Shown: one piece after another, positions 12,123-53,353 of the stretch | How the letters are laid out: each line of letters begins with the position of its first letter | How positions within the stretch are numbered: the first letter of the stretch is position 1 | Assembly (NCBI RefSeq): GCF_001598215.1 | Contig: NZ_BCXJ01000002.1 | Span: forward strand, 248,001-312,000 | Direction of reading: 5' to 3' | From: Shouchella clausii | GTDB lineage: Bacteria > Bacillota > Bacilli > Bacillales > Bacillaceae_D | DNA: 64,000 nt | Position numbers and translations under genes: made by a program | Notes under the pieces: model-generated | What the model was told of the DNA's origin: nothing | Seen by the model: only the letters and a program-made list of their open reading frames with translations | The model's database searches: none

Positions 12123-12442
12123 ATGACTATTGTTCCAGAGCGTCTAAGAGCATTAAGGAAAGAACGACAGCTTACCAGGAACAGCTAGGCGAGCTGATCA
12201 ACGTAACGAAAGTGTCCATATCAGGCTATGAAAATGGCAACCGCACCCCTGACACCGATACATTACGCCGCCTTGCAGATGTCTTCGGTGTTTCAACAGA
12301 TTATCTGCTAGGGCGTTCCAAAGAGAAAAATGGCTCTTTCTTTTATGACAATGAACTTACACACAAAGAGGCACAGCTATTGCGTGAACACCTTGCCTTT
12401 ATCCGCTTCCGGGCCAATAAAAAAGAAAATGAAACAGACTGA
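12123..12442 (+). pseudogene. XRE-family regulator broken by a one-base deletion
   Basis: The proper start is the ATG at 12123, behind AAAGGG, giving MTIVPERLRALRKERQLT. The next codons then read into a TAG at 12186. In the neighbouring frame the homologous protein resumes from about 12176 with QEQLGELINVTKVSISGYEN, then GNRTPDTDTLRRLADVFGVS and a stop at 12440-12442. Joining the two gives a normal SinR/phage-repressor-like helix-turn-helix protein of about 106 residues, so one C seems missing in ACCAG at 12174-12178. It could be a real mutation or a sequencing error. A start at 12077 would give a meaningless N-terminus. Confidence 0.85.
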
Positions 12443-12532
12443 TAGAAAACGCTTGCCAACGAGAAGTGCAGTGAAGATGCTTTTGAACAGCAGTTTCAAA
12501 GCAGATGAACAAGGCAGACGATGTTTATGAAT
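12435..12532 (+). repeat. Intergenic repeat family, copy C (partial)
   Basis: The first 23 bp (12435-12457) are identical to 46251-46273, and the block continues with weaker similarity to 50611-50700 (AAGTGCAGTGAAGATG, then GTTTCAAAGC). It begins inside the last codons of the XRE gene, so the stop codon TGA is supplied by the repeat. Confidence 0.6.
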
Positions 12533-12548
12533 GGTTGTTACGATCTAA

Positions 12549-12579
12549 AACAGCTTGCTAAGCAGGCTGTTTTTTTTTA
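12549..12579 (+). terminator. Rightward terminator after the XRE pseudogene
   Basis: AACAGCTTGC pairs with GCAGGCTGTT (one G-T pair) and is followed by nine T residues on the plus strand. It closes the XRE transcription unit. Confidence 0.85.
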
Positions 12580-12586
12580 GCCACCC

Positions 12587-12613
12587 AAAAAAACGCCTAG
12601 CGTATGACTAGGC
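12587..12613 (-). terminator. Leftward terminator after ypbF
   Basis: On the minus strand GCCTAG and CTAGGC enclose a 7-nt loop and precede GTTTTTTT. It lies 20 nt after the ypbF stop and, with the rightward terminator beside it, insulates the convergent genes. Confidence 0.8.
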
Positions 12614-12632
12614 ATTTCGATTTATCATGATA

Positions 12633-13046
12633 TCATTCAAAATAAAACAAGTTGATGGAGTAGCGCGTTTGCATTTCTTTTAAATAGGCTTCTTTCTCGG
12701 CTGCGCTACGCTCAGTTGGCCAAAACTCTTCGCTACGCTCGATAAACTCATTGCGCAGCGCCTCAAATTCTTTTTCTTTTTTTGCTGCTTTCTTTGATAA
12801 ATGAACAAGTCCAATGAGAGACAGAGAGAGTACGACGAGTAAAGCTGTTGACAACGGCGAAGCAAGCAACTCTTTGGGAAAGACCATGCGTCCTGTTTGA
12901 GGCTCATTCAAAAGAATCACAAATGTGCAGCCACTAATGAGCGCAGCCCACCCGCAAAACAAGTGTTGTTTCTCCAAGCGATCCCACTCTGTTTTGCGTT
13001 TAATCAACTCTTTCGTAATCATCTCTAATGCCAATTGGCCTCCCAT
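12633..13046 (-). CDS. ypbF: YpbF-like membrane protein
   Basis: The 137-residue protein has a charged N-terminal helix, two hydrophobic spans (LFCGWAALISGCTFVILL near 31-48 and TALLVVLSLSLIGLVHL near 67-83) and a long charged C-terminal helix (KKAAKKEKEFEALRNEFIER). GGAGGG lies 8 nt upstream of the ATG at 13046. The function of this family is not known. The symbol rests on its place in the ypbD-ypbE-ypbF order and on the two-span layout; the sequence identity is by recall. Confidence 0.7.
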   Translation of the reverse strand: MGGQLALEMITKELIKRKTEWDRLEKQHLFCGWAALISGCTFVILLNEPQTGRMVFPKELLASPLSTALLVVLSLSLIGLVHLSKKAAKKEKEFEALRNEFIERSEEFWPTERSAAEKEAYLKEMQTRYSINLFYFE

Positions 13047-13090
13047 TGCCTGATCCCTCCCATACGTAATGTATGGGAAAGGCTGTCCTT

Positions 13091-13285
13091 TTAGAACAAA
13101 TAGAACGAGACAGCTAAACTCGTGAAAACAAGCAAAAAGAAAAGAACAGCGAGCATATGGGCAATGGGAGAGACCACTGCTTTTTTCTTGTCTTTTCGTT
13201 TCTTTTTATGGTTCCGAACTTTTGAACGGGGAGGCAGCGTTTCAAGTTCTCCTTGGTTTTCTAAATAAATCGGCTGTTCGCTCAT
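13091..13285 (-). CDS. ypbE: Shortened YpbE: anchor without LysM domain
   Basis: I choose the ATG at 13285, which lies 8 nt from AGGAGG; the ATG at 13291 is only 2 nt from it. The 64-residue product begins MSEQPIYLENQGELETLPPR, has a basic stretch (NHKKKRKDKKK) and ends with a membrane span (HMLAVLFFLLVFTSLAVSFY) and a stop. As I recall it, B. subtilis YpbE has the same kind of N-terminus and span followed by a long extracellular part with a LysM peptidoglycan-binding domain. Here that part is absent, and the 44 nt before ypbF leave no room for it. Either a reduced protein or a truncated gene. Confidence 0.65.
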   Translation of the reverse strand: MSEQPIYLENQGELETLPPRSKVRNHKKKRKDKKKAVVSPIAHMLAVLFFLLVFTSLAVSFYLF

Positions 13286-13297
13286 TAGCATCTCCTC

Positions 13298-13873
13298 CTA
13301 CTTTCTGTTCTTAACATTTAAAACAAAGGCAAGAACAGCGTTAATGAAAAAATGCGCACATACAACAGTCGCAAAGTTCCCTGTCACCTCAAACGTCCAA
13401 CCAAGCCCTATGCTTATAACGAGTACGTAGGCAAACAGCACAGGCTTTGTTACATAGCGAAAATGGACAATCGCAAACAGCAAACTCGCCAGCGGCAGCC
13501 CAACGAGCTGTTGCAAAACGGCTCTGAATAGCCATTCCTCGCAAAAGGCCACCAACAAGCAAAAACAGACAATATGGACAGGGCCCATGCCGGTAAAAAC
13601 ACGCTCATTCAATCCCCCATCATCGAGCCAGCCTTCTGGCAACAACACGACAAGCAGCCAATTTATGAGCAAGGCGGCAACAGCAAACAAACTTCCGTAC
13701 CCTATTCCCGTGCCCCACTGAAATTCAAGGCTTTGCCAAATGCCAACCGGTCCGCCCGTATAGAAAAAGCTTAACGCGATTCCAATGGCCAAAAGCAGCA
13801 GTTGCGAACCGTATAAGCTGATGTATAAATCTTTCTTATCCAGCTGAGTGGTGGCGCGGCGGTTTGCTTTCAT
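13298..13873 (-). CDS. ypbD: CPBP-family (CAAX-like) intramembrane metalloprotease YpbD
   Basis: The 191-residue protein has about five membrane spans. The catalytic motifs of the CPBP/Abi family are visible as FCEEWLFRA (glutamates and arginine) and, about 20 residues later, LLFAIVHFRY with the second-motif histidine; a third region (CAHFFINAVLAF) supplies a further His. Members are thought to cleave membrane-embedded substrates; the substrate here is unknown. The start overlaps the recS stop by 4 bp, and it is followed 6-12 nt later by ypbE, so recS, ypbD and ypbE look like one operon. Confidence 0.85.
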   Translation of the reverse strand: MKANRRATTQLDKKDLYISLYGSQLLLLAIGIALSFFYTGGPVGIWQSLEFQWGTGIGYGSLFAVAALLINWLLVVLLPEGWLDDGGLNERVFTGMGPVHIVCFCLLVAFCEEWLFRAVLQQLVGLPLASLLFAIVHFRYVTKPVLFAYVLVISIGLGWTFEVTGNFATVVCAHFFINAVLAFVLNVKNRK

Positions 13874-15375
13874 CGTTTTCCCTCCGCCACTGCAAAAACG
13901 GCTTTAAGCTCTTCTTCCCACAAAAACGGCTCCTCATTTACGTTAACAGGCGTCCGTTTAAACGAGTCAAGGGTGAGACCACACACATCACAGCACGGAT
14001 TTTGGGGAGCTGGAAACTCATCGAAATAGGCAAGTAATTGTTGGCGCCGGCAAGTTTGGTCATCACGACCATAGTGAAACACCGGGAACAGCCGGTTCTT
14101 TTTAGCTGCAATTTGCTCTTTAAAATGGCGGTGGAGCAAACTTGTTAGTTTTGCCATTGAAAAGGATTGGACAAGCCCTGCCTTGATTACACCCCATTTT
14201 TCTAACAAATATGCAACCGTCCGTGCTTGATCGGATTGCATGGCTAAAAGCCGGTTCTCAAATGATGGAAAATCAAGCGTTTCTCCTACTTTTAACTGTG
14301 AAAGTGCCCATACCCATTCATCGGCAGTAAAATCGTTTTTTTTAAGTAAATTTTGCGCTTGTACACGATCTTCTTGAGCAGTTAGAAGCAAAGCAAAGCT
14401 TAAAGCCCCATCGCGCCCTGCCCGACCAATTTCTTGAATGTAGGAGGCGATGTCAAGTGGGTAATGCAAATGGATGACATAACGCACATCTGTTTTGTTA
14501 AGCCCCATCCCAAATGCGTTCGTCGCACAAATCACATCCAGTTGGCCATTCATAAATTGTTGTTGGACAAGCAAGCGGTCGGCGTTTTCCATGCCGCCAT
14601 GATAAAAGCTCGTCCGAACATTCTTCACTTCCTGAGCAAGATAAGCGCTGCATGCTTCTGCCTGGGCTCTGCTCTGAACGTAAATGATTCCTGGTGCTTG
14701 ATAAGTAGCGACCATTTCCACAAGGCGTTGCTGTTTTTGGGCTTGGTCAGCAGCCTCCTCAGCTAGAAGCACAATATTGGAGCGGTTGACACTCTCAATA
14801 TGTTCAAACGGTGTCCGTAAATCGAGCTGTTTTTTAATATCAGTACGGACTTCTTTCGTTGCTGTGGCTGTAATCGCTAAACAAGGCGGCGAACCGAGCA
14901 CCTGTTTGATGTCGCAGATCCGCAAATAATCTGCGCGGAAGTCATGCCCCCAATAAGACACGCAATGGGCTTCATCGACGACAATATAAGAGACTTTTAC
15001 CTTTGCCAAAGCAGCGAGCAGTTCTCGTGATTGCAACATCTCCGGCGACGTGTACAACAGTTTCACTTTTGCAAGGTTACGGAGCAAACGTCTACGTTCT
15101 TCCGTTTCCGTAAAGCTGTTGAGAGCGGCAGTTTGTTTCAGTCCGATTGATTTCAACTGTTGGACTTGGTCTTCCATCAACGCGAGCAGCGGTGAAACGA
15201 CAATCGTAACCCCGTCGGCGAGAAAAGCAGGCAGCTGGTAACAAAGGGATTTGCCCCGTCCTGTCGGGAGCATAGCCAACACGTCTGCCCCATCTATGAG
15301 CGCTTCAATGATTTCTTTTTGCCCTTGCCTAAATGAAGTAAAACCAAACAAAGCCTGCAAATGACGTTCTAACAT
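13870..15375 (-). CDS. recS: RecQ-like ATP-dependent DNA helicase RecS
   Basis: The 501-residue protein has the superfamily 2 helicase motifs in order: ALIDGADVLAMLPTGRGKSL (Walker A), VDEAHCVSYWGHDFR (DEAH box), AITATATKEV (motif III), and YIQEIGRAGRDG (motif VI). Cysteines of the RecQ zinc-binding region are near the C-terminus (CRRQQLLAYFDEF, then PCCDVC). There is no long HRDC extension, matching the short RecS form and not RecQ. It unwinds DNA 3' to 5' and takes part in recombinational repair. Its ATG overlaps the end of ypbB, as in the B. subtilis ypbB-recS pair. Confidence 0.92.
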   Translation of the reverse strand: MLERHLQALFGFTSFRQGQKEIIEALIDGADVLAMLPTGRGKSLCYQLPAFLADGVTIVVSPLLALMEDQVQQLKSIGLKQTAALNSFTETEERRRLLRNLAKVKLLYTSPEMLQSRELLAALAKVKVSYIVVDEAHCVSYWGHDFRADYLRICDIKQVLGSPPCLAITATATKEVRTDIKKQLDLRTPFEHIESVNRSNIVLLAEEAADQAQKQQRLVEMVATYQAPGIIYVQSRAQAEACSAYLAQEVKNVRTSFYHGGMENADRLLVQQQFMNGQLDVICATNAFGMGLNKTDVRYVIHLHYPLDIASYIQEIGRAGRDGALSFALLLTAQEDRVQAQNLLKKNDFTADEWVWALSQLKVGETLDFPSFENRLLAMQSDQARTVAYLLEKWGVIKAGLVQSFSMAKLTSLLHRHFKEQIAAKKNRLFPVFHYGRDDQTCRRQQLLAYFDEFPAPQNPCCDVCGLTLDSFKRTPVNVNEEPFLWEEELKAVFAVAEGKR

Positions 15376-16409
15376 TTTATGAATCCTTTCCTCGCCAGCG
15401 TAAGCCGAATGTCAAAATAAGTGACTTCATTGTTAAGCGCTGTTCGAATCGTTTTTAACTTTAACGTACGGTGTTCGCGGCTGGCGCGCAAAATGTTCTT
15501 TTGCGTTTCTTCGCTCACATAGCGGTCAATTGGGAAAGAGCGGTCAAACAAAGCAATTTCAACGAGATGATCTTCAATCGTTGCCGGCTTTAAGCCGCGT
15601 ATGTGCGCGAGCTCTTGCACAGAATCAACTTGCGGCAATAAAGAGGCGGTTTTTCGTGCCGACGCAGTGCTTGTCCGGCTTTGTATCGTTGGAAGCAAAT
15701 GTGAAAGCACTTCGTAATTGCACGGGTTTTCACTGGTCTCAGCCATCAGTGCATGGAGGTTGCTTTTATGGCGTAGTTCAACTTCCATTAAGGAAAGACG
15801 ATAGCGCAAGGCAAGCTGTTGCCTCGTCTCCCCGATCCGCTTTTGCCTTGAAAGCTGTAGAACAAACAGTTCAGCTTGCAGTCGATCACGCTTTCTTAAA
15901 AAAGCGGCACATTCTTTATATAACTTCATCCTGTATCGATTCCGTTCAGCTGGTTTTGGGAGTGTGCTTTTGACGAATCGTTGTACATCTAAATCGCCAA
16001 CGACAGGAATAAAAGAAGTCCCCGTTGCTAATGCATTTAATGACTGCACAAGCAAAGCGAGGCGGTTCCAAAAGAGCACATCCGCCTGTTGGAACAATCC
16101 ATTGTTTATATTTTGTACGTAAGAATGGGCATGTAGCCAGGCATCCAACTGGGTCTCGCCTTTCTCAGTCAGCTGGTGCGCCCCGTCCGTTTCGCGGACT
16201 TTCCCATTTTCAAGCAACGCTTTAACGACTTGTTCCGCTTCGTTATAAGACAGTTGGGGCAAAAGACCAAACAAAGGAAGAGCGCTGAACAAAGCGCCAT
16301 CTTGTATCGTTTGTGCGGAGCGCTTGCCTTTTAATAAATGATACGCTCCGAATAAAGAGCGTTCGCCTTGAAAACGATGACAGGCAAGCATAAAAAGCTG
16401 TTCTCTCAC
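15369..16409 (-). CDS. ypbB: YpbB, helix-turn-helix partner of RecS
   Basis: The start is set at the GTG at 16409, with GAGGG 7 nt upstream. The frame is open to 16448, but that region has no ribosome site. The 346-residue product begins MREQLFMLACHRFQGERSLF and continues GAYHLLKGKRSAQTIQDG, like YpbB. The C-terminal part (SVQELAHIRGLKPATIEDHL) resembles the helix-turn-helix/HRDC-like domain found after RecQ helicases. It overlaps recS by 7 bp, so the two proteins may act together; the biochemical role of YpbB is not established. Confidence 0.85.
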   Translation of the reverse strand: MREQLFMLACHRFQGERSLFGAYHLLKGKRSAQTIQDGALFSALPLFGLLPQLSYNEAEQVVKALLENGKVRETDGAHQLTEKGETQLDAWLHAHSYVQNINNGLFQQADVLFWNRLALLVQSLNALATGTSFIPVVGDLDVQRFVKSTLPKPAERNRYRMKLYKECAAFLRKRDRLQAELFVLQLSRQKRIGETRQQLALRYRLSLMEVELRHKSNLHALMAETSENPCNYEVLSHLLPTIQSRTSTASARKTASLLPQVDSVQELAHIRGLKPATIEDHLVEIALFDRSFPIDRYVSEETQKNILRASREHRTLKLKTIRTALNNEVTYFDIRLTLARKGFIKC

Positions 16410-16518
16410 GATTTTTCCCTCTTTCAATCGTGCCTTGGTTTTCCTCATTGTACCAAAACAGCCTTGTTTTTGTCCTTGTTTGTCAATTGCAGTTTTGCTT
16501 GTTGCGCGCTACAATTGA

Positions 16519-16797
<279 letters not shown>

Positions 16798-16905
16798 AAG
16801 AATGATTTTGATTAAAGTTATCTGTCTTTTTTCTGTATTTTTCTTTTTTATAACTAACGAGGATTAGCGATTACAAGAAAAACCGAACTTTTTTGGTTTT
16901 GACGA

Positions 16906-16934
16906 TTGACTTTTCTGCGTTGCCATGATAAATT
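16906..16934 (+). promoter_or_regulatory. Sigma-A promoter of the serA leader
   Basis: TTGACT (16906-16911) and TAAATT (16929-16934) are separated by 17 nt. Transcription would start near 16942, just upstream of the T-box leader. Confidence 0.7.
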
Positions 16935-16969
16935 ATCTAACAAATCAAATTGCTAAAAACGATGATGAA

Positions 16970-17190
16970 GACATGAAAAGCAAGGCCGATTCAGAGAGCT
17001 GGTGGGAGCTGCAAACCAGTGACAGCCTGTTTGGATAGCCCTTCTAAGTTGTCACGTCGAAAAAACAGTAGACGTGTGCCGGCTTCTGCCGTTACCAGTA
17101 AAGATGCACATCTTGTGCAAACAACGAGGGTGGTACCGCGAACATTCGCCCCTCACAGCAAAATTCTGCCGCTGTGGGGGGCGTTTTTCA
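16970..17190 (+). promoter_or_regulatory. T-box leader of serA, probably serine-specific
   Basis: The conserved T-box sequence GAGGGTGGTACCGCG lies at about 17126-17140. It is followed by a terminator, with CGCCCCTCACAGC (17147-17159) pairing with GCTGTGGGGGGCG (17171-17183) and then TTTTTC. The upstream part has the AGAGAGCTGGTGG element of stem I. By alignment to other T-boxes, the specifier triplet following TGGAT is AGC (17037-17039), a serine codon. Uncharged tRNA-Ser would stabilise the antiterminator and turn on serA. The T-box and terminator are clear; the specifier is inferred without folding. Confidence 0.9.
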
Positions 17191-17229
17191 TTTATGTAGG
17201 AAGAGAACCATAAAAGGAGTGGAGTACAA

Positions 17230-18831
17230 ATGAACCAAGTAGCAGAGCCAAAAACAGCCCAATTTCACATTCTCGTAGCCGATACCATGAGCGAAGAAGG
17301 CCTGTTGCCTTTGCTTGAGGCTGACCATGTTGAGGTTACACAAGCAAGCGTCGACAACGCTGGGCCACTGGAGCAATACGACGCCCTGTTAATCCGCAGT
17401 GCCACTACAGTCACCGAGGAGCTCCTCAGCCGTATGCCACGTTTGAAAATCGTTGCTCGTGCCGGCGTCGGTGTTGACAATGTAGACATACAAGCGGCAA
17501 CCAAACATGGCGTTGTCGTCATTAATGCACCTGACGGCAATACCATTTCAACAGCGGAGCACACATTTGCGATGATGTGCGCACTGTTGCGCAATATTCC
17601 ACAAGCTAACGCTAGTGTTAAATCAGGAAAATGGGACCGCAAAGCTTACCAAGGCACTGAGCTTCGTGGAAAAACACTTGGCATTATTGGCTTTGGCCGT
17701 ATTGGTACGCAACTAGCTAAACGAGCCAAAGCGTTTGAAATGGGTGTGCTTGTGTATGATCCATTTTTAACGGCTGAACGAGCAGAAAAACTTGGCATCG
17801 CCCAAGGCGAGTTGGATCATGTTCTATCCGTTGCCGATATCATTACTGTGCATACGCCATTAACGAAAGACACAAAAGGGCTTTTGAATATGGAAACAAT
17901 CGCGAAAACAAAGCCAGGTGTGTTTTTAATAAACTGCGCCCGGGGGGGCATCATTGATGAACAGGCTTTAAAACACTACTTAAACAACGGCCACGTGGCC
18001 GGGGCTGCTTTGGATGTGTTTACAGAAGAACCAGCGACAGACAAAGAATTGATTGATCATCCTAACGTAGTTGCCACACCTCATATTGCTGCTTCCACGA
18101 AAGAAGCACAACTGAACGTTGCTGCCCAAGTCTCACAGGAAGTACTGCAATTTTTAAACGGTGAACCGGCATTAAACTCCATTAATTTGCCAGCCATGCC
18201 AAAAGAAGTTTACGAAAAAATGAAGCCATATTACGACCTTGCTAGGACAATGGGCTCCGTATTATCACAATTGATGCGCGTGCCTGTCCAAGAAATCGAA
18301 GTGTTTTACAGCGGTACAACAGCCGAACAAAATACGAGCGTGCTAACGAGAAGCCTTATTTCTGGTTTTCTCCAACCACGTGTTGATGCGGCTGTCAATG
18401 ATGTCAACGCCTCACTTATTGCCAAAGAACGTGGCATTTCCTTTGGCGAAAAGCATGTGACGAAAACATTTGGCTACTCTAACCTCATTCAGGCAATTGT
18501 CCATGGCGAAGGCAGACAGTTTGAAATGAAGGCAACTTACATCCATGAATATGGGCCACGGATTGTATCAATCAACGGCTTTTCAGTCGATGTCGTCGCA
18601 GAAGGGCATATTTTATACATCCAACATTTTGACCGCCCCGGCGTTATCGGCAAAATGGGTCAACTCCTCGCTAAGCACGACGTCAACATTGCAACGATGC
18701 AAGTTGGACGGAAATCAGCCGGTGGCGAAGCGATTATGATTGTCCAAGTCGATAAACATGTAGATCAAACGGTGATCGACGGTTTGTTAACGTTTGACGA
18801 AATCGCTATTGCTAGCGTCATCGATTTATAA
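17230..18831 (+). CDS. serA: D-3-phosphoglycerate dehydrogenase
   Basis: SerA oxidises 3-phosphoglycerate to 3-phosphohydroxypyruvate with NAD, the first step of serine synthesis. The 533-residue protein has the NAD-binding motif LGIIGFGRIGTQLAKRAK, the catalytic Arg in FLINCARGGIIDE, the Glu in DVFTEEPATD, and the His in VATPHIAASTKEA. An intervening domain and a C-terminal ACT domain (HFDRPGVIGKMGQLLAKHDV) follow; the ACT domain usually mediates feedback by serine. The ATG at 17230 follows AAGGAG. The gene is controlled by the T-box leader directly upstream. Confidence 0.96.
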   Translation: MNQVAEPKTAQFHILVADTMSEEGLLPLLEADHVEVTQASVDNAGPLEQYDALLIRSATTVTEELLSRMPRLKIVARAGVGVDNVDIQAATKHGVVVINAPDGNTISTAEHTFAMMCALLRNIPQANASVKSGKWDRKAYQGTELRGKTLGIIGFGRIGTQLAKRAKAFEMGVLVYDPFLTAERAEKLGIAQGELDHVLSVADIITVHTPLTKDTKGLLNMETIAKTKPGVFLINCARGGIIDEQALKHYLNNGHVAGAALDVFTEEPATDKELIDHPNVVATPHIAASTKEAQLNVAAQVSQEVLQFLNGEPALNSINLPAMPKEVYEKMKPYYDLARTMGSVLSQLMRVPVQEIEVFYSGTTAEQNTSVLTRSLISGFLQPRVDAAVNDVNASLIAKERGISFGEKHVTKTFGYSNLIQAIVHGEGRQFEMKATYIHEYGPRIVSINGFSVDVVAEGHILYIQHFDRPGVIGKMGQLLAKHDVNIATMQVGRKSAGGEAIMIVQVDKHVDQTVIDGLLTFDEIAIASVIDL

Positions 18832-18850
18832 GCCTTGAAAAACATAGACA

Positions 18851-18888
18851 ACTTTTGCTAATAGGCGCGCTTCGTCGATAGCAAAAGT
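18851..18888. repeat. Inverted repeat after serA
   Basis: ACTTTTGCTA (18851-18860) and TAGCAAAAGT (18879-18888) are a perfect 10-bp inverted repeat with an 18-nt loop. It lies between the serA stop and its terminator and is not followed by a T run. Role unknown; it may protect the 3' end of the message. Confidence 0.5.
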
Positions 18889-18904
18889 TAACGATCGATT
18901 GCCT

Positions 18905-18940
18905 GGCCACCTCGTTTTTCAACTAGGTGGCCTTCGTTTT
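18905..18940 (+). terminator. Terminator of serA
   Basis: GGCCACCT (18905-18912) and AGGTGGCC (18925-18932) form a perfect stem, followed by TTCGTTTT. Confidence 0.85.
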
Positions 18941-19017
18941 CTTCTACTTATCTAAACCACTTCTCAACTTCCATAGCGATTCTAAAACAAACAAGAATGT
19001 CAGCTTTAAAAAAATAT

Positions 19018-19046
19018 TTGCTCACCAGTTCACAATATGATATGAT
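19018..19046 (+). promoter_or_regulatory. Promoter of the NADH oxidase gene
   Basis: TTGCTC and TATGAT are spaced by 17 nt. TTCACAA half-sites overlap the spacer (about 19030) and follow the start region (about 19072), and a nearly complete Rex-like dyad lies 60 nt further down. Confidence 0.5.
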
Positions 19047-19105
19047 CAACTTGAGGATTTTGCTCAATGGTTCACAAAAAGATGAACCTTTTCACTTGCT
19101 CATTC

Positions 19106-19123
19106 TTGTGAAATTACTCACAT
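19106..19123 (+). promoter_or_regulatory. Rex-like operator upstream of nox
   Basis: TTGTGAAATTACTCACAT matches the Rex consensus TTGTGAA-N4-TTCACAA at all but two of the defined positions. It lies 24 nt before the nox start codon, downstream of the promoter. Rex is the NADH/NAD-sensing repressor of Gram-positive bacteria, and an NADH oxidase is a fitting target. Confidence 0.6.
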
Positions 19124-19146
19124 TCTTATATAGGAGGCTACAAACG

Positions 19147-20526
19147 ATGAAAATAATTGTAATTGGTTGTACCCATGCTGGTACGACTGCTGTTAAAAAT
19201 TTAATCCGGCTTCATCCTGACGCTGAAATAACCGTCTATGAACGAAACGATACAGTCTCCTTTCTGTCTTGCGGGATCGCCTTGCACGTCGGCGGTGTCG
19301 TTGAACATGCTGAAGACTTGTTTTATTCATCTCCACAAGAATTGGCTGCTCTTGGCGCAAACATGCACGTCCTTCATGACGTGATTAACGTTGATAATAA
19401 AAACAAAAAAATTCGCGTCCGCAACCTTCAAACAGGTGAACAATTTACAGACAACTATGACAAACTTGTATTTACAACAGGCTCCGCTCCAGTCATACCG
19501 CCTATTCCTGGTGTCGGCTTAAAGAACATTCAGCTTTGCAAAAACTATTACCAAGCGCAGCAAATCATAAAAAAAGCAACGAACGCCAAAAAAATAGCCG
19601 TCATTGGCGCTGGCTACATTGGCATTGAACTCGTTGAGGCATTTGCAGCAAACGGCAAGGATGTAATCCTTATCGAGGGTGCCAGCCGTATTTTAAACAA
19701 ATACCTCGACCATGAGTTTACCGATGACATTGAAACAACATTACGTGACCATCATGTTACGCTGGCGCTTGGCGAAAAAGTCGAATCATTTACCGGAAAT
19801 TCGGCAGGATGTGTCCAAGCCGTGCAAACAAGCAAACAGACACACGAAGCAGACCTTGTCTTGCTTTGCGTCGGCTTTAAGCCACTAACAGATCTCATTA
19901 AAGATAAAGTCGACACACTTGAAAATGGCGCTTTGCTAGTGAATGAATATATGCAAACGAGCGATCCTGATATTTTTGCGGCTGGAGACAATTGTGCAGT
20001 ATTTCACAACTCTGCCAACCATATGGCTTACATCCCTCTTGCTACAAATGCAACGAAAATGGGCACGCTCGTTGCGTACAATATTGATGGGCCGACATTT
20101 GCCTATAAAGGGACACAAGGAACATCTGGGCTAAAGTTGTACGACCTAAACATTGCCTCTACTGGTTTAACTGAAGAAACGGCAGCGATATATGGCCTTG
20201 ATGTCCGTTCATTTACATTCACGGACCATGAACGCCCGACATTCATGCCTTCTGCTGAGGAAGTTCGGATAAAGCTTGTTTTCGAACAGGAATCGCTTCG
20301 CATTGTCGGTGCCCAAGTCATGAGCAAGACCGATCATACACAACTAATGAATACCCTATCGGTCTGCATCCAACAGAAGATGACGGTGACTGATTTAGCG
20401 TTTGCTGATTTCTTCTTCCAACCACATTACAGCAAGCCTATTCACCTGCTGAATACGCTCGCCCTTAACATTCTTGAACAAAGGGAACCAATACAAAAAA
20501 CAGCAGAAGTACGCTTATCAAACTAA
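19147..20526 (+). CDS. NADH oxidase / CoA-disulfide-reductase-type flavoprotein
   Basis: The frame is open from 18997, but AGGAGG lies 9 nt before the ATG at 19147, which gives the usual N-terminus MKIIVIGCTHAGTTAVKNL and 459 residues. The FAD-binding motif is at the start, the redox Cys42 is in VSFLSCGIAL, the NAD motif is IAVIGAGYIGIELVEAFA, and the second FAD motif is IFAAGDNCAV. A single Cys42 is the mark of water-forming NADH oxidases and CoA-disulfide reductases; they cannot be separated safely here. The Rex-like site upstream favours an NADH-consuming oxidase. A strong terminator follows. Confidence 0.88.
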   Translation: MKIIVIGCTHAGTTAVKNLIRLHPDAEITVYERNDTVSFLSCGIALHVGGVVEHAEDLFYSSPQELAALGANMHVLHDVINVDNKNKKIRVRNLQTGEQFTDNYDKLVFTTGSAPVIPPIPGVGLKNIQLCKNYYQAQQIIKKATNAKKIAVIGAGYIGIELVEAFAANGKDVILIEGASRILNKYLDHEFTDDIETTLRDHHVTLALGEKVESFTGNSAGCVQAVQTSKQTHEADLVLLCVGFKPLTDLIKDKVDTLENGALLVNEYMQTSDPDIFAAGDNCAVFHNSANHMAYIPLATNATKMGTLVAYNIDGPTFAYKGTQGTSGLKLYDLNIASTGLTEETAAIYGLDVRSFTFTDHERPTFMPSAEEVRIKLVFEQESLRIVGAQVMSKTDHTQLMNTLSVCIQQKMTVTDLAFADFFFQPHYSKPIHLLNTLALNILEQREPIQKTAEVRLSN

Positions 20527-20533
20527 ATGACAA

Positions 20534-21436: not shown

Positions 21437-21449
21437 ATGTTTCCCTCCT

Positions 21450-43480: not shown

Positions 43481-43570
43481 CAGCCAGAGGCTACTGCTTC
43501 TGGCTGAGGCTATAGGCAAACGATCGCATAACGTTGTTGTTTGCACAGGCTATGTTTCTATCAGACTTTG
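43481..43570. repeat. Intergenic repeat family, copy E (short)
   Basis: A hairpin (CAGCCAGA 43481-43488 with TCTGGCTG 43499-43506) is followed by GAGGCTATAGGCAAACGATC, GCATAACGTTGTTGTTT and, at the far end, TTTCTATCAGACT. The same order of hairpin, CTCAGACTGTAGGCAAACG-like block and TTTTCTATCAGTCTGAG-like end occurs in the copies at 50.6 and 53.2 kb. It lies between convergent genes. Confidence 0.6.
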
Positions 43571-44174: not shown

Positions 44175-44198
44175 CGCGCAAACCCCTTCATTGCTGTT

Positions 44199-45531: not shown

Positions 45532-45677
45532 TCAATCACCACATTAGATTTGGACATCTTAAACGAAAGCAACGGTCCTCTGCTTTCGTGGCCAATTCGT
45601 TTCTAGCCACAAAAAGTCGACTCACGCTAGAAGTATACCATAAACCACTTTTTTGCAACAGCAAAGGGGAACGAACG

Positions 45678-46142
45678 ATGTACAAACAGCGCTATCTTGA
45701 TTTCCTCTATTATTTTCATGCGGAACGGGATTACTTTGAATGCCACGAAGTGTTAGAGGCAGAATGGAAATCCGTTCCGAAAGACAAGCGCGCTTCTTGT
45801 TGGGTCACGCTCATCCAACTAGCGGTCGCCCTTTATCATGAGCGAAGAGGCAACATAAAAGGAGCAGCGATTTTGTATCGCCGCTTGCTCAAACGCGTTC
45901 CTGTAGAGGCAAACGACCTTTACGAACTAGGCCTAAATGCAAGGACGCTAAAACAAGATATGAAAACACGGCTCGCCCATTTAGGCTCTAACTGTTTTGA
46001 GGACTACAACCTTCCGATATGGGACACAGCCTTGCTTGCAGCATGTCAACGCCACGCTGGAAAATCGTGGTGTGCTCCAAGCAATCTCGCAGATCCCCAG
46101 CTCATTGATAAGCACCTTCTGCGCAATCGAAATGACCAATAA
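45678..46142 (+). CDS. ypuF: DUF309 protein YpuF
   Basis: The start is the ATG at 45678 behind AAAGGGGA. The 154-residue product begins MYKQRYLDFLYYFHAERDYF, with ECHEVLEAEWK and IQLAVALYHERRGN, the DUF309 signature (His-Glu pairs that suggest a metal site). B. subtilis YpuF lies next to scpA in the same divergent arrangement, which supports the symbol. The function is unknown. Confidence 0.85.
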   Translation: MYKQRYLDFLYYFHAERDYFECHEVLEAEWKSVPKDKRASCWVTLIQLAVALYHERRGNIKGAAILYRRLLKRVPVEANDLYELGLNARTLKQDMKTRLAHLGSNCFEDYNLPIWDTALLAACQRHAGKSWCAPSNLADPQLIDKHLLRNRNDQ

Positions 46143-46159
46143 GAGGATTGAACAGCCCC

Positions 46160-46187
46160 AAAAAAAAAACGGCCCTAAAAGGGGCCG
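46160..46187 (-). terminator. Terminator of the riboflavin operon
   Basis: On the minus strand CGGCCC and GGGCCG pair around a 6-nt loop and a run of ten T follows (complement of 46160-46169). It lies downstream of ribH, beyond the 30-bp tandem repeat. Confidence 0.85.
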
Positions 46188-46196
46188 CTTGAGGTT

Positions 46197-46273
46197 GTCG
46201 ACAAAGTCGATAACCGCACTCAGACTGTAGACAAAGTCGATAACCGCACTCAGACTGATAGAAAACGCTTGCC
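46197..46273. repeat. Two 30-bp tandem units plus intergenic repeat end, copy D
   Basis: Units 46197-46226 and 46227-46256 differ at one base; each contains ACAAAGTCGATAACCGCACT and ends in CAGACT. The block 46247-46270 is identical over 24 bp to 50601-50624, and 46251-46273 is identical over 23 bp to 12435-12457. It lies between the ribH stop and its terminator. Confidence 0.85.
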
Positions 46274-46277
46274 GTTA

Positions 46278-46748
46278 TTACGCCTCGAACTGCTTCGCTA
46301 GATTCGCCATTTCAATCGCTGCGCTTGCTGCTTCCCACCCTTTGTTTCCTGCTTTTGTGCCTGCTCGTTCCACTGCTTGTTCGATTGTATCCGTTGTTAA
46401 GACACCAAAAATGACGGGAATCCCAGTGGTCAATGCCAACGAAGAGACCCCTTTCGCCACTTCATTACAAACGTAGTCAAAATGAGGCGTCGAACCCCGT
46501 ATAACGGTCCCTAAAGTGATCACCGCGTCATATCGGCCGCTTTCAGCCATTTTTTTTGCTGCAAACGGGATTTCGAACGCTCCTGGGACCCAAGCAACAT
46601 CGATATCGCCTTCATCTGCTCCATGGCGGATTAACCCATCTTGCGCGCCGCCGAGAAGTTTACTTGTAATAAATTCGTTAAAACGACCAACAACCATTCC
46701 GATCTTCAATCCGGATGCCACCAAATGGCCTTCATAATTTTTCCCCAT
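46278..46748 (-). CDS. ribH: 6,7-dimethyl-8-ribityllumazine synthase
   Basis: The 156-residue enzyme condenses the pyrimidinedione intermediate with 3,4-dihydroxy-2-butanone 4-phosphate. The motifs are present in order: [60 protein letters not shown] and [20 protein letters not shown], with the catalytic His in the third. It is the last gene of the rib operon, 11 nt after ribBA. The icosahedral shell subunit is of the normal length. Confidence 0.96.
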
Positions 46749-46759
46749 TTGAATTCCTC

Positions 46760-47953
46760 CTATAAATTGAGCATATGCCCAAGCTTTTCTCTTTTCGTAT
46801 GCAAGTAATGTTCATTTTCGGCTACTGCTTCCATTTGCAAGGGCACACGCTCAACAATGTTTAAGTCATAGCCTTCTAGCCCTGCGATTTTTCGAGGGTT
46901 ATTCGTCAAAAGCCGCATGTCACGGATGCCTAAATCGCGAAGGATTTGCGCCCCAATCCCGTATTCGCGCAAATCCGCTGGAAATCCAAGGCGCTCATTC
47001 GCTTCCACCGTATCGTAGCCTTCCTCTTGCAACTTATAAGCGCGAAATTTATTGATTAGCCCAATCCCGCGGCCTTCCTGTTTCATATAGAGCAACACGC
47101 CTCGTCCTTCTGCTTCAATTTGCTTTAGCGCCGCGTGCAACTGCGGACCACAATCGCATCGTTTTGAGCCAAACACATCGCCAGTCAAACATTCGGAGTG
47201 AACACGAACTAGAACAGGTTCACCGTTTCCGACGTCCCCTTTAACAAGGGCGACACTTTCTTTGCCGTCTATGGAATTTGTATAGCCAACCGCTTTAAAA
47301 TCGCCATACTCAGTCGGCAACGAAATAGCCACTTCTCTTGTGACAACTTTCTCCGTCTTACGGCGGTAAGCGATCAAGTCTTTAATCGTCACCATCGGCA
47401 AGTTGTGCTGATCGGCAATGATACGCAACTCAGGCACTCTAGCCATCGAACCGTCTTCGTTCATCACTTCGCAAATAACGCCTGCCGGTTTCGCTCCACA
47501 AAGTTTCGCAAAGTCAACAGCGGCTTCCGTATGACCAGCCCGGCGTAGCACACCGCCGTTTTTGGCAACAAGCGGGAAAACATGCCCTGGCCGTTTAAAA
47601 TCGCTTGGCTGCGCATTGCCATCTGCTAAAGCGCGGACCGTTTCTGCCCGCTCAAAAGCGGAGATGCCAGTTGTCGTACTTGAATGGTCGACGCTCACAG
47701 TAAATGCCGTTCCATGTGGATCTGTGCTGTGAGACACCATCTGCCCAAGCTGCAGGCGTTCAGCCTGCTCTTCTGTCAAAGGGACACAAATAAGACCGCG
47801 TCCGTGTGTTGCCATAAAATTGATTGTTTCAGGGGACGCCGTTTCAGCAAGAGCCAAAAAATCCCCTTCATTCTCCCGGTCTTCATCATCTACAACGAGG
47901 ATTATTCCCCCTGCTTTTAATTGTGCGATCGCTTCATCAATCGATTCAAACAC
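46760..47953 (-). CDS. ribBA: Bifunctional DHBP synthase / GTP cyclohydrolase II
   Basis: The start is the GTG at 47953 (GGGGAG upstream), giving 397 residues, which is the usual length; the frame reaches 48088, overlapping ribE. The N-terminal half ([20 protein letters not shown], then [11 protein letters not shown] and [16 protein letters not shown]) makes 3,4-dihydroxy-2-butanone 4-phosphate from ribulose 5-phosphate. The C-terminal half ([20 protein letters not shown], then [20 protein letters not shown]) is GTP cyclohydrolase II, with the three zinc cysteines. It supplies both precursors of riboflavin. Confidence 0.96.
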
Positions 47954-47966
47954 GTTGTTCTCCCCT

Positions 47967-48611
47967 TTACATATAGCTATTTTCTTTAAGAAGCTGCGAC
48001 AAAGGCGTACGAACGGCACTTTCTTTCGGGGCAAGCAGTTTCTCAACGTATTTGCCGATAATGTCGCATTCCAAATTGACATGGTCACCAGGTTTCTTTG
48101 TGCCCATAATGGTCATTTCAAGTGTGTGCGGAATAATCGAAATCGTAAAGCTTGTATCAGTGACGGCAAACACAGTCAAACTCGTTCCATCAACAGCGAT
48201 CGACCCTTTTTGAACAATATAGCGAACAAGTTCTCGGTCTGCTTCCACTTCGAATAGCACAGCATTCTCAACTGGTTGTCTTTTTTGAATGATGCCGATG
48301 CCATCTACATGGCCGGAAATGATATGCCCGCCAAAGCGGCTGCCGACAGCCATCGCCCGTTCCAAATTAACAAACTGGCCAGGAACAAGCTGTTTGATCG
48401 TTGTCGCTTCGTATGTCTCTGGCATGACGTCTGCTTGAAATTGGCTTTCAGATATCGCCGTAACCGTTAAACAAACGCCGTTCACAGCGATGCTATCGCC
48501 AATTGCCGCATCTGCCAAAACGGTTTTGCAGTTAACGGCCAACGTCATGGCTTTGCCTTTTTTTGAGACAAAAGCAATTTTGCCCATTTCCTCAATGATA
48601 CCTGTAAACAT
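47967..48611 (-). CDS. ribE: Riboflavin synthase, alpha subunit
   Basis: The enzyme dismutates two lumazine molecules to riboflavin. I use the ATG at 48611, 7 nt after AGGGGG, giving [16 protein letters not shown] and 214 residues; the ATG at 48617 lies on the site. The two lumazine-binding repeats show [16 protein letters not shown] and [16 protein letters not shown], and [16 protein letters not shown] lies between them. It is the first gene after the FMN riboswitch. In B. subtilis ribD precedes it, but here ribD is missing. Confidence 0.95.
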
Positions 48612-48630
48612 AGTCATGCCCCCTTTTAAA

Positions 48631-48665
48631 TAGAAAAAACCCTGAAGAACATGTCTTCAGGGTAC
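48631..48665 (-). terminator. FMN riboswitch terminator before ribE
   Basis: On the minus strand ACCCTGAAGA pairs with TCTTCAGGGT across CATGT, followed by TTTTTTC. It lies between the aptamer and the ribE ribosome site and is the expected ligand-controlled terminator. Another hairpin (AAACGTATG/CATACGTTT, 48673-48694) lies just upstream and may take part in the switch. Confidence 0.9.
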
Positions 48666-48747
48666 AGGAAATAAACGTATGGCTTCATACGTTTTTGCGC
48701 ACAACAAATAAAGCAAACATAACCGTTTTTTAAAAGTTTGCGCTCGA

Positions 48748-48892
48748 ACTTCTCCCATCCAGACTATTACTGTCGGCTCTGGATTTGCACCAGATCCACC
48801 GCACACGCAAGTGATGCTTATGCGGGTCACGGACTAAAAGGCAATTGCCTTATCACCGCCGGTCGGGATTTGCACCCTGCCCCGAAGTTGAG
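48748..48892 (-). promoter_or_regulatory. FMN riboswitch (RFN element)
   Basis: The minus strand shows the conserved RFN blocks in order: TTCGGGGCAGGGTGCAAATC, CCGACCGGCGGTGA, AGTCCGTGACCCGC, GTGGATCTGGTGCAAATCC, GAGCCGACAGT, and TCTGGATGGGAGAAG. Binding of FMN favours the downstream terminator and shuts off ribE-ribBA-ribH. The promoter should lie at about 48900-48950. Confidence 0.96.
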
Positions 48893-49100
48893 TATTATTC
48901 ACTTGTGATTGGTTCACTAAGTAAACCAAGATTATCATTGTAAAATAAAAAAAGCAAGGACTTTGCTCCCTAGCTTAAGGACACGGTTTTATAACGTCCA
49001 TTCTATTCCCTTTTAGCGCCGGAAATAACGAACAAGCTGCTGATCAATTTATCCTATCTTCATTCATTGGAGCTCCTATTGAATAAAAATATAAAAACGC

Positions 49101-49146
49101 AAAAAAGCAAAGCACTTGGTCATCATCGCCATTCTACGTGCTTTGC
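49101..49146 (-). terminator. Terminator of an orphan minus-strand transcription unit
   Basis: On the minus strand GCAAAGCAC and GTGCTTTGC (9 bp) enclose a 22-nt loop and are followed by TTTTTT. It is 30-60 nt past a good promoter-driven segment that encodes only a 75-residue ORF. Confidence 0.7.
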
Positions 49147-49361
49147 CTGCTTATAAGCTTCTCTATTCTATCTTCTTGTTCCGTTAGAAGAGACAAAAAG
49201 CTAGACTCTATGGAATTTTTTGCTAACAAGACAACGAAAGCCCTTCCTCTCGATCGTCCTTGCGGCTCCGAGGCCGCGCCAGTTTGAATTGCATGTACAA
49301 AAAGTCTTTTCCCTGCGCCTGAAAGGAGGCGGTGTAAGTGATAATAGACGGGAGGCATCAA
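49134..49361 (-). CDS. Hypothetical 75-residue protein or non-coding transcript
   Basis: The ORF reads MMPPVYYHLHRLLSGAGKRL and ends ESSFLSLLTEQEDRIEKLIS plus RQST. The C-terminal part looks like coding sequence; the N-terminal part is less convincing. GGGAG lies a few bases before the ATG and can pair with CTCCC just inside the gene. The stop codon lies within the terminator stem, which is unusual. A different frame (49201-49434) is also open. The transcript may act as RNA, since its 5' part holds ACACCGCCTCCTTTC, which is close to the anti-Shine-Dalgarno sequence. No family recognised. Confidence 0.35.
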   Translation of the reverse strand: MMPPVYYHLHRLLSGAGKRLFVHAIQTGAASEPQGRSRGRAFVVLLAKNSIESSFLSLLTEQEDRIEKLISRQST

Positions 49362-49405
49362 CTCCCGCAGGCAGAAAAAAGTAGCCTAGCCTTATATAAA
49401 TAATC

Positions 49406-49434
49406 ATTATAACGAAAAAGATGGCGCAATGCAA
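49406..49434 (-). promoter_or_regulatory. Promoter of the orphan transcription unit
   Basis: On the minus strand TTGCAT and a perfect TATAAT are spaced by exactly 17 nt. Transcription would start near 49399 and end at the terminator at 49101, giving an RNA of about 300 nt. Confidence 0.7.
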
Positions 49435-49514
49435 GTTGAAATGTTTTGCATTTCCGCTAAAAATGCGTCAAAATAGAAAAAGAAGCGATTACTTTTTAAT
49501 GATGGGGTGAAGCA

Positions 49515-50567
49515 ATGTCGACCAATATGCGATTTGAAAAATTAGATACTGGGGTAGGAGTCATCACACTTGCCCGTGAAAAAGCGTTGAATTCGCTGTC
49601 TTATGACATGGTGAGTGGCATGTTGGCACAATTGCAACAGTGGAAACAGGATGATGAGGTTGCACTCGTTCTTCTTGAAGGAGCCGGGAGCAAAGCTTTT
49701 TGTGCTGGCGGAGACATTAAAGCGCTTTATAACGCCCGGGACAGCAAAAATGGAATCGAGGAAGCAAAACATTTTTTTGCCCATGAATACGAACTTGACC
49801 TGCTCGTTGCCACCTACCCCAAACCGATCGTCGCCCTTCTTGACGGCATTGTGATGGGAGGAGGCGTTGGCCTTAGTTACGGCGCGAGTCACCGCATTGT
49901 CACCGAGACAACTAAGTGGTCTATGCCTGAAATGAACATTAGCTTCTTTCCCGATGTAGGGGCCTGTTATTTTCTGAGCCTTGCTCCTGGGTATACAGGG
50001 AGGTATGCAGCACTGACTGCTGCAATGCTAACTGGAGAAGATGCGATTTTTCTAGGGTGCGCCGACTATTATACGAAAAGAGAAACGATTGAACCTCTTC
50101 GCAGTCAATTGCTTAGCACCGACTGGACAAATAGCGAACAAGATCTGGGTCAAGCACTGCACCTTTTTTTGCAGTCATTCATTGCAGAACCGCCAAAAAG
50201 CGAATTGGCTATGCTGCAAGCGAAAATCGATCAACATTTTTCCCACAAAACGGTCGAAGCCATTATCGCTTCACTTGAAGAAGCGAAAGCGGATGAATTT
50301 GCCCAAGATTGCGCCAACATATTGCGCAGCAAATCGCCTTTATCACTAAAGGTGACACTCGCCCATTTAAAACAATCGAAGACATCTACGCTTGAAGAAA
50401 CGTATGAAACCGATAAGCGCCTCGCTTTGCGCTTTTTACGTTGCGATGATTTTTATGAAGGCGTACGGTCTGTATTAATCGATAAAACGCGTATGCCCAA
50501 TTATCAGTATAAAACAATCGAAGAGGTACCTGACGAATTAGCGCTTTCCTTTTTCCGTGAACTGTGA
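49515..50567 (+). CDS. 3-hydroxyisobutyryl-CoA hydrolase
   Basis: The 350-residue protein belongs to the crotonase superfamily. The oxyanion-hole motifs are KAFCAGGDIKALYNARDSK and VMGGGVGLSYGASHRIVTE, and the following WSMPEMNISFFPDVGACYFL has the acidic pair and the PDVG stretch found in hydrolases of 3-hydroxyisobutyryl-CoA, not in plain hydratases. It frees 3-hydroxyisobutyrate from CoA in valine degradation. The next genes encode the following enzymes of that pathway on the opposite strand, which supports the call. Hydratase activity on other acyl-CoAs cannot be excluded. Confidence 0.85.
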   Translation: MSTNMRFEKLDTGVGVITLAREKALNSLSYDMVSGMLAQLQQWKQDDEVALVLLEGAGSKAFCAGGDIKALYNARDSKNGIEEAKHFFAHEYELDLLVATYPKPIVALLDGIVMGGGVGLSYGASHRIVTETTKWSMPEMNISFFPDVGACYFLSLAPGYTGRYAALTAAMLTGEDAIFLGCADYYTKRETIEPLRSQLLSTDWTNSEQDLGQALHLFLQSFIAEPPKSELAMLQAKIDQHFSHKTVEAIIASLEEAKADEFAQDCANILRSKSPLSLKVTLAHLKQSKTSTLEETYETDKRLALRFLRCDDFYEGVRSVLIDKTRMPNYQYKTIEEVPDELALSFFREL

Positions 50568-50600
50568 GTTCGCTGCTTTTTTAGGTAAAGTCGCTCCCAT

Positions 50601-50742
50601 CACTCAGACTGATAGAAAACGCTTCTCAGATGAAAGTACAGATGAGCAAAGATGTTAGCTTTGCACTGACTGTTTCAATCCATTTGAGAAGCAAATGACG
50701 ATTTGCCTACAGTCTGAGCCACCTGCTATATGCGGGTGGCTC
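50601..50742. repeat. Intergenic repeat family, copy A (full length)
   Basis: It starts CACTCAGACTGATAGAAAAC and GCTTCTCAGATGAA at 50601-50633 and ends GAGAAGC...CAGTCTGAG at 50688-50718. These are imperfect terminal inverted repeats, sharing CTCAGACTG and GCTTCTC. A hairpin (GAGCCACC with GGTGGCTC, 50716-50742) adjoins the right end. It lies between convergent genes and is homologous to 53190-53353 and, in part, to 12435-12532, 43481-43570 and 46247-46273. Confidence 0.75.
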
Positions 50743-50805
50743 TAAAAGTAGTTATGCAAATTCCATTTCTAAATGCTTTTTTAAGCGATAACCAGGTTCC
50801 CTTAA

Positions 50806-52266
50806 CTAATTAAACCAGCGTTCAGTAACGACTTTTTTCCTTGTGTAAAATTGGATGCCGTCACGTCCATTTGTGCCAAGGTCGCCAAAAAACGATGCTT
50901 TATTGCCAGCAAATGAAAAGAACGCCATTGGAGCGGGCACATTCACATTGATGCCAACCATCCCGGCATCAATCGCATTTCGAAAGTGTTGCGCTGCCTT
51001 GCCGCTAGATGTGTAAATAACCGCCCCGTTAGCAAAGCGAGATCGGTTCGTTAAAGCAATTGCCTCTCCTAAATCTCGAACACGGACTATGCTGAGCACT
51101 GGTGCAAACAACTCTTCTTGCCAGATTGTCATATCGGGTGTCACGTGGTCGAATAAGGTTGCGCCAAGGTAATAGCCGGCTTCCTCGCTCGTTGCGTTGC
51201 GGCCATCAACCAACAGCTCTGCTCCTTGTTCTACTCCTTGTTCAATGTATTTAACAACTTTGTCTTTATGGCTTTGGCGAATGAGCGGGCCGACAAAATG
51301 TTCATCGTTTTTGCCGTTGCCGACTGTCAATTTCTTCGTCTCTGCCGTTAGTTTTTCGATAAACGCATCCGCTACTTCCTCAACGACGGCGACGACGGAA
51401 CAAGCCATGCACCGTTCGCCACTCGATGCAAACGCTGCACCAATGACCCCTTGGATCGTCTTATCCAGTTCACAATCGGCTAAAACAACAGCGTGGTTTT
51501 TTGCGCCTGCAAGGGCCTGAACTCGTTTGCCATTTGCTGTACCTGTTTCATATACATAGCGAGCCACTGGCTCAGAGCCGACAAACGAAATCGCTTCAAC
51601 GTCCGGGTGGTTTAACAAGCCATTAACCACTGCTTTGCCGCCATTCACTAAATTCAATACACCGCTTGGCAAACCGACTTCATGCATAAGTGTGACAAGT
51701 CGTTCAGCTAAAAGCGGCGTCCGTTCAGAGGTTTTAAGAACAAATGTATTCCCTGCTGCAATCGCAAGTGGAAACATCCATAACGGTACCATCATTGGAA
51801 AGTTAAACGGCGTAATGCCAGCAACAACACCTAAAGGATAGCGCCAAATCGAACCGTCAATCCCGCTAGCAATATCGGGAAGAGCGTCGCCCATCATCAT
51901 TGTCGGTGTCGACGTAGCCAGCTCGACACACTCAATGCCACGCTGGACTTCCCCTCTAGCATCTTTGATCGTCTTGCCGTTTTCAAGCGTTATCAACTGC
52001 GCCAATTGCTCCCTATTTTCCTTTAGCCGCTCCAAATACGCAAACATGTACCGAGTACGCTCGGGAACAGGAACCGTTTTCCATGTTTCATAGGCCCGTT
52101 TTGCGCTCGCCACCGCCTGCTCAACATCGCGTTCGCCTGAAAGGGGCACGTAAGCAATGGTTTCCCCTGTTGCTGGGTTTGGCACGACTTCCGTTTCAGC
52201 CGTAGTTGCTTCCACCCAAGCACCGTCAATCCAGTTTTTCACCGTTTTCACTTTCGTTGTGGTCAT
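50806..52266 (-). CDS. mmsA: Methylmalonate-semialdehyde dehydrogenase (acylating)
   Basis: The enzyme turns methylmalonate semialdehyde, NAD and CoA into propionyl-CoA and CO2. The 486-residue protein has the CoA-dependent ALDH features: catalytic Cys in [17 protein letters not shown], the NAD loop [16 protein letters not shown], and no conserved Glu general base at the usual LELGGK place ([13 protein letters not shown]). Its overlap (4 bp) with mmsB identifies it with valine catabolism; an iolA role in inositol degradation is less likely, because no iol genes are present. Confidence 0.92.
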
Positions 52267-53168
52267 CGTTTAGCCACTCCTTCCGCTTTAAAGGAAATCG
52301 TCTGTTCCCCAATCCGTTCAAACAGCACGGCCATGTCCTTTTCTCCAAGCCCTGCTTGCTCAGCGTCTGCATACAGTTCAACTAAAGCTTCACTAATCGG
52401 CAATTTAATGCCGCGCTCTTTCGCAAGATCCATCGCAAAACGCAAATCTTTATTAAGCAGCTTTAAGGCAAATCCAGGTTCATAATTGCCTGTTGCCATA
52501 AACGATTTATAATTTCGCTCATAAATGCGGCTTTGGCCATAACTAACATTTAGGACGTTAAACAGAAAATCCAAATTTAAGCCGCTCTTTTCGGCAAGCG
52601 CCAATGCTTCTGCAACACCGGCTGTGTAAAAGCCAATCAGCAAATTATTGATCAACTTTGCATTGGTGCCGCTGTCATAGCTTTCACTAATATGAAAGAC
52701 ATTGCTTCCTAGTTTCATCAGGTGATCAGATACTGTCTCAAGCAGTTTTTTTGGACCGCCAACCATGAACGTCAAGGTTCGGTTTTCCGCTCCAACGACG
52801 CCGCCACTAACTGGAGCGGCCAAAAACGATAATCCTTTTTCTTCTGCCGCTTGCCCAATCCGCACTTCAAGCTCTGGAGCGACAGTGCTTGTGTCGACAA
52901 AGAGAATGCTCGAAGGGGCAGAAGCGAATACGCCCTCTTCTCCTAAATACACATTTTCGACCGCTTCAGAAGAAGGGAGGCTTGTAAAGATGAGCTCACT
53001 TGCCAGCACGATGTCTGTCAAATCATGGGCCCGCTTTCCCCCTGCCTGTTCAAACGCTAAAAGAGAAGCTTCATTGATGTCATAACCAACTACTTCATAT
53101 CCAGACTCAAGCAAATTTTTCGACATTGGCATGCCCATATTGCCTAAACCGATGAACCCGACTTTCAC
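52263..53168 (-). CDS. mmsB: 3-hydroxyisobutyrate dehydrogenase
   Basis: The enzyme oxidises 3-hydroxyisobutyrate to methylmalonate semialdehyde with NAD. The 301-residue protein has the dinucleotide motif [20 protein letters not shown], the substrate motif [20 protein letters not shown], and the catalytic Lys in [16 protein letters not shown]. It is the first gene of the mmsB-mmsA pair, separated from prpB by a 188-nt gap that is mostly repeat. GGGGGAGATGTC precedes its GTG/ATG start. Confidence 0.92.
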
Positions 53169-53189
53169 GACATCTCCCCCTCTGGTGAT

Positions 53190-53353
53190 TTTGTCGACTT
53201 TAGCGATAACCTCAAGAGCCTGTCAAGCAGGCTCTCAGACTACACACAAACGCTCGCATATGTCGTCGTTTTCATATATTTAAAAACCGTTTCTCATGAC
53301 ACGCATTTTACTCGCATCTTCCCTTACTACATTCATCTGAAAAGCGTTTTCTC
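53190..53353. repeat. Intergenic repeat family, copy B
   Basis: On the plus strand TTGTCGACTTTAGCGATAAC lies at the left end, then a hairpin (AGAGCCTG with CAGGCTCT, 53215-53235), CTCAGACTACACACAAACGC, TCGCATATG, and, at the right end, CATCTGAAAAGCGTTTTCTC. Read on the minus strand, its end matches the start of copy A (AAAACGCTT.TCAGATGAA). It fills almost the whole gap between prpB and mmsB. Confidence 0.75.

Follow-up and report, generated by a model that had tools for sequence, protein, structure and literature searches.

Repeat copies in the window

The window, a stretch of 64,000 nucleotides from Shouchella clausii, carries a short intergenic repeat that a sequence-only reading had described as conserved left and right blocks beside a hairpin of variable sequence, in five copies. 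The described blocks are indeed present in all five stretches. The placement holds as well: every copy lies after the end of an open reading frame, and three are situated between convergent frames (in an ORF list, not a set of curated genes). In the rows below, G060 is a genome labelled as the same species as the window's own genome (G000), and G010 and G008 are other genomes of the genus.

12435..12532, minus strand: decayed element copy of the long class whose left end is missing or can no longer be recognised; G060, G010 and G008 share this decayed copy
12550..12570, plus strand: terminator-like hairpin followed by a T-run, called from sequence, on the left-end side of the 12435..12532 copy
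43481..43506, plus strand: hairpin (target terminator) beside a left end; related hairpin in G010 and G008
43504..43570, plus strand: short decayed copy that G060 shares; alignment shows it faintly in G010 and leaves it unclear in G008
46170..46187, strand not given: hairpin (target terminator) beside a right end
46189..46273, minus strand: right-end remnant with about 30 bp tandemly doubled; the remnant lacks the doubling in G010 and G008
50603..50718, minus strand: near-full copy without the outermost right end
50716..50742, strand not given: hairpin (target terminator) directly adjoining the 50603..50718 copy at its left end
53187..53213, plus strand: right end of another copy
53214..53235, strand not given: hairpin (target terminator) between two copies
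53236..53353, plus strand: copy in which the left end and body can be recognised and the right end is decayed

The inverted terminal sequences reported earlier were recovered in the near-full copy at 50603-50718, which has CTCAGACTG at both ends; no second copy of its hairpin was found at this element. The stretch 46247-46273 is the inner portion of the right end whose tandem doubling runs from 46189, and at 43481 some of what looks like the left block (CTGAGGCT) is also the 3' arm of the hairpin itself. Ahead of the hairpin of the 53236-53353 copy lies a right end belonging to a second copy, so that right end, hairpin and the left end of the other copy adjoin within 53187-53236. All five copies are present in G060 at 100% rounded identity, and those at 12435, 50603 and 53236 are also found in G010 and G008, more or less decayed. 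A complete hairpin pair is absent at all five, and the copies in the window itself are old and decayed. The same region also contains an FMN riboswitch (48743-48893, minus strand; 109 bits) and a match to the BsrC sRNA (49221-49307, plus strand; 81 bits), both above the Rfam gathering score.

The family and its duplicated hairpins

The further genomic copies expected by the sequence-only reading are abundant. The 53190 copy as query gave at least 43 matches across the 4.66 Mb genome, and a cleaner copy at least 42, in each case among the best candidates scored. Allowing up to three mismatches, the 24-bp left end has 77 matches in the window's genome, 83 in G060, 79 in G010, 49 in G008, 23 in G005 and two in G009; it has none in the other seven of the 13 genomes of the genus, and the reversed pattern has none in any of the 13. 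A 22-base left-end pattern was found in at least 106 stretches, and the genera among the matches listed are Shouchella, Bacillus, Gottfriedia, Peribacillus, Anaerobacillus, Jeotgalibacillus, Lederbergia, Metabacillus, Ureibacillus and Niallia.

The sequence of a full copy is CAGACTGTAGACAAACGCTCGCAT ... GACAAGCGTTTTCTATCAGTCTGA, followed by about 30 bp ending in CGACTTTGTCGACAACCTC, and its left end and the inner repeat near its right end are mutually inverted. The element measures about 154 bp, and a second class (about 191 bp) is longer by 37 bp located in the middle. At two aligned sites (own1 and own9) the conspecific genomes carry different length classes; at the orthologous loci L056/L289 and L071/L278 the difference is this 37-bp middle segment, implying that the length classes switch in place. 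Head-to-tail tandem copies occupy one site (L066, L317), where G060 has the longer array and the window's genome the shorter. The right end of the element is itself palindromic (e.g. L138, L159 and L214) and could therefore be a target in its own right. A conserved fold of the element body was considered and discarded, as the predicted consensus helix comprises the inverted ends only. In Rfam 15 no match at gathering level covers the element copies of the window; among the eight element loci searched none reached the gathering score, with five matches below threshold.

Target duplications, which had been proposed as a check, were found at 22 of the 64 own copies and at 28 of the 67 usable copies in G060 as direct repeats abutting both element ends. 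In a multi-genus scan they abut both ends at 55 of 96 usable copies among the matches listed, a set that overlaps G060. One of 68 copies in G060 and 11 of 107 in the scan were dropped for lack of flank. A repeat was called only with a score above 13 that also exceeded the 99.5th percentile of mispaired flanks, the best mispaired scores being 13 (own), 13.5 (G060) and 16 (scan). The other 42 of the 64 own copies show no detectable duplication and are presumably old or rearranged.

The duplicated sequences are predominantly hairpins. They are 15-36 bp long in the own set, 15-36 bp in G060 and 14-45 bp in the scan, mostly between 20 and 31 bp (19/22, 25/28 and 41/55, respectively), and form inverted repeats beyond 95% of shuffles in 19/22, 24/28 and 46/55 cases; here and below, scan values refer to the matches listed. 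Where the stem is clear, the length of the repeat tracks that of the hairpin (own, r = 0.77, n = 17; G060, r = 0.79, n = 22; scan, r = 0.74, n = 40). A T- or A-run, defined as at least five T in the eight bases after the repeat or at least five A in the eight before it, adjoins 15/22, 19/28 and 50/55 repeats, with no preference in orientation (T-run only against A-run only, 8/5, 8/8 and 18/18). Hairpins of unrelated sequence are duplicated whole, which suggests that the target is recognised by its shape.

Comparison of the two conspecific genomes supplied the empty sites that the reading had also asked for, eight sites being occupied in one genome and empty in the other. Both flanks of 61 of the 64 own copies lie in G060 at a spacing that fits the element, and own7 is empty there. 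Two own copies lacked a flank in the G060 DNA first examined; own5 proved to be empty there, and own19 has a variant copy in G060. Conversely, 8 of the 68 copies in G060 have no match for one or both flanks in the own loci, and six of these sites are uninterrupted in the window's genome (of the other two, one lies at the end of a stretch and one, copy 57, was left out of the test). Seven sites of the own-versus-G060 comparison were aligned. All eight differences between the strains show a single hairpin in the empty genome, although at g6 the bases to the right of it differ too. None of G000, G008 and G010 has an interruption at g25, g37 or g60, nor do nine more distant genomes at g25, so these are best read as insertions gained in G060. 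Both own5, missing in G060, and g64, missing in G000, are occupied in G008 and G010 as judged by spacing; their absence fits a precise loss through recombination between the duplications, with lineage sorting or transfer as alternatives.

The changing hairpin of the sequence-only reading is thus not a part of the repeat but the terminator-like target of the host, present already at empty sites and found on each side of recent copies. The suggestion that the family is mobile, on the other hand, is supported by the target duplications, the precise empty sites within the species and ends that are common to an insertion-sequence family.

Candidate transposase, mechanism and alternatives

No transposase gene can be housed in the element because it is too short. 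It is small and numerous, with inverted ends, target site duplications, empty sites and an IS1182 partner with similar ends in relatives, and we consider it very probable that the family is a non-autonomous, protein-less MITE moved in trans by a DDE transposase of the IS1182 family. The assignment is based on the match of both MITE ends to the ends of IS1182 elements in relatives, some of which lie between duplicated hairpins. The IS1182 model NF033551 has matches in 44 of 60 genomes, including two weak ones in the window's genome. Among 21 IS1182 loci examined, five (L104, L106, L107, L119 and L124) are flanked by direct repeats of a 21-26 bp hairpin, and their ends resemble CAGACTGTAGACAAA with the exception of L104 (GAGAAA) and one end of L124 (CTG); L119 contains a stop and L124 is short. 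The other 16 show no hairpin duplication and may include other subgroups, broken copies and contig ends.

The candidate partner is an IS1182 element of G010 with five near-identical copies (95-100%), three of which (one being L107) have both ends inside duplicated hairpins and two have one such end. The MITE ends correspond to those of this element, CAGACCGTAGACAAAACGC on the left and CAGCCTGTCGACAAAGTC on the right, a likeness of only about 13-18 bp per end that does not extend to the interior. The element encodes an IS1182-family transposase (NF033551, 485 bits) with DUF772 and DDE_Tnp_1_6 domains. Full-length copies were found in G010 only; the partner transposase has no match at E 0.001 in G000 or G060, both draft assemblies, and DUF772 has none in the window's genome. 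Partial matches in G037 and G056 were considered as autonomous elements and rejected, showing no transposase-like ORF by eye. Likewise, the 1.2 kb between the flanks of the g6 site in G010 appeared to be a candidate autonomous version and turned out to be a copy together with an element that, judged by eye on its first part, is of the IS30 type.

The transposase would recognise an inverted repeat by its structure, probably as a cruciform that an intrinsic terminator extrudes, and would join the two 3' ends of the element to the two 5' feet of the stem-loops, after which gap repair would leave a full hairpin on each side. After insertion, CAGACTG rather than a T-run directly follows the inner hairpin, and the outer hairpin keeps its own T-run, by which it would rebuild termination; termination is accordingly expected to be retained. 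Insertion would therefore be cheap, so that dozens of copies could accumulate, and recombination between the duplications could excise an element cleanly. In this way, insertion at terminator hairpins with duplication probably lets the element spread without breaking genes.

Three other explanations deserve weighing against transposition by an IS1182 enzyme. The repeat might be a selected RNA or terminator module of gene ends that brings the hairpin along and stabilises or ends transcripts, its mobility being incidental. Such a module would account for the position of copies after ORF ends, for a body still recognisable across genera (mean column identity of 77% over 24 sequences) and for co-variation between the left end and the inner repeat, where three of ten predicted pairs are changed on both sides (in 5, 3 and 1 of the 24 sequences). 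It also agrees with the paired hairpins, whose stems have diverged less than their loops (18/988 against 24/276 positions in 53 non-redundant pairs of equal length; Fisher p about 4e-7), a difference that could come from selection on both hairpins or from a repair effect. However, the hairpin belongs to the target and precedes the element at empty sites, no consensus fold emerges beyond the inverted ends, no Rfam match reaches the gathering score in the eight element loci searched, and copy number is patchy, down to zero in seven of the 13 genomes of the genus, which leaves this explanation improbable.

An IS30-family transposase of the IS1630 kind is a quite improbable mover, even though IS1630 is described in the excerpt of PMC3317919 used here as targeting and duplicating inverted repeats, with duplications of 16, 23, 25 and 26 bp. 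The MITE ends match those of IS1182 instead, HTH_38 has no match in the window's genome, where it was searched for, and MITE-like ends are not evident by eye in an IS30-type element near a copy in G010. An ORF for an IS30-type transposase (by eye) adjoins an element copy at L339 (G010:C1:2168300-2170600). Finally, the paired hairpins might have arisen by slippage or gene conversion between repeats without any transposition, and the same-site length differences at own1 and own9 and the tandem copies of L066 and L317 do show that recombination or slipping takes place. This origin is nevertheless most improbable, contradicted as it already is by repeats directly bordering the element at dozens of hairpins unrelated in sequence and by empty sites with one hairpin. 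The IS1182-driven MITE is the reading we retain.

Relation to known systems

The dozens of paired hairpins with matched empty sites constitute a large natural record for structure-guided transposition, which for IS1182 elements appears so far, in the sources at hand, to have been proposed on a small number of cases in which the hairpin is, on the contrary, deleted. They show how a mobile element can fill the space at gene ends, probably without loss of termination, and could account for the repeats that lie beside terminators in many Bacillaceae. As sites are occupied or empty within one species, the effect on transcription is measurable there.

The published MITEs most similar in build are MITEPye1 of Paracoccus yeei (PMC11578231) and the ISMac2-related MITEs of Methanosarcina acetivorans (PMC3852290), which are likewise about 160 bp long, ORF-less and provided with IS1182-like ends. 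They differ in having direct repeats of 4 bp or none, and terminator targeting is not described in the excerpts of these two papers used here; the numbers given are 1-3 copies of MITEPye1 per chromosome and 14 and 7 of the ISMac2 MITEs. IS1630 differs in its transposase family (IS30) and in being a full IS of mycoplasma (PMC3317919). The literature searched, with few subscription journals and with ISfinder outside its scope, contained no IS1182 MITE that duplicates terminators.

IS1272 and TnSha1 share the transposase family by name, and their targets are also hairpins or terminators without sequence consensus (PMC4923244, PMC5678879). According to the same excerpts, however, these elements delete or replace the target hairpin (PMC4923244 describes deletion without duplication), and for IS1272 the stem-loop is proposed to be lost because the element is joined to a cruciform at its 3' feet (PMC5678879), whereas the MITE here has a hairpin on both of its sides and duplicates it whole. 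As the published IS1182-related MITEs have 4-bp repeats or none and IS1272 deletes the hairpin, whole-hairpin duplication by an IS1182-type MITE is, as far as these excerpts go, new relative to both. We consider it somewhat better than an even bet that a subgroup of DDE transposases reads DNA shape and, by joining both strands to an extruded cruciform at its 5' feet, duplicates a hairpin of any sequence and length; that, across Bacillaceae, terminators serve this subgroup and its MITE as safe sites that repair themselves; and that the IS1182 family is split into hairpin-duplicating and hairpin-deleting (IS1272) modes. In the hypothetical pathway b of PMC5678879, the element would be joined at the 5' feet and the whole hairpin duplicated as a result, and the MITE family described here fits that pathway.
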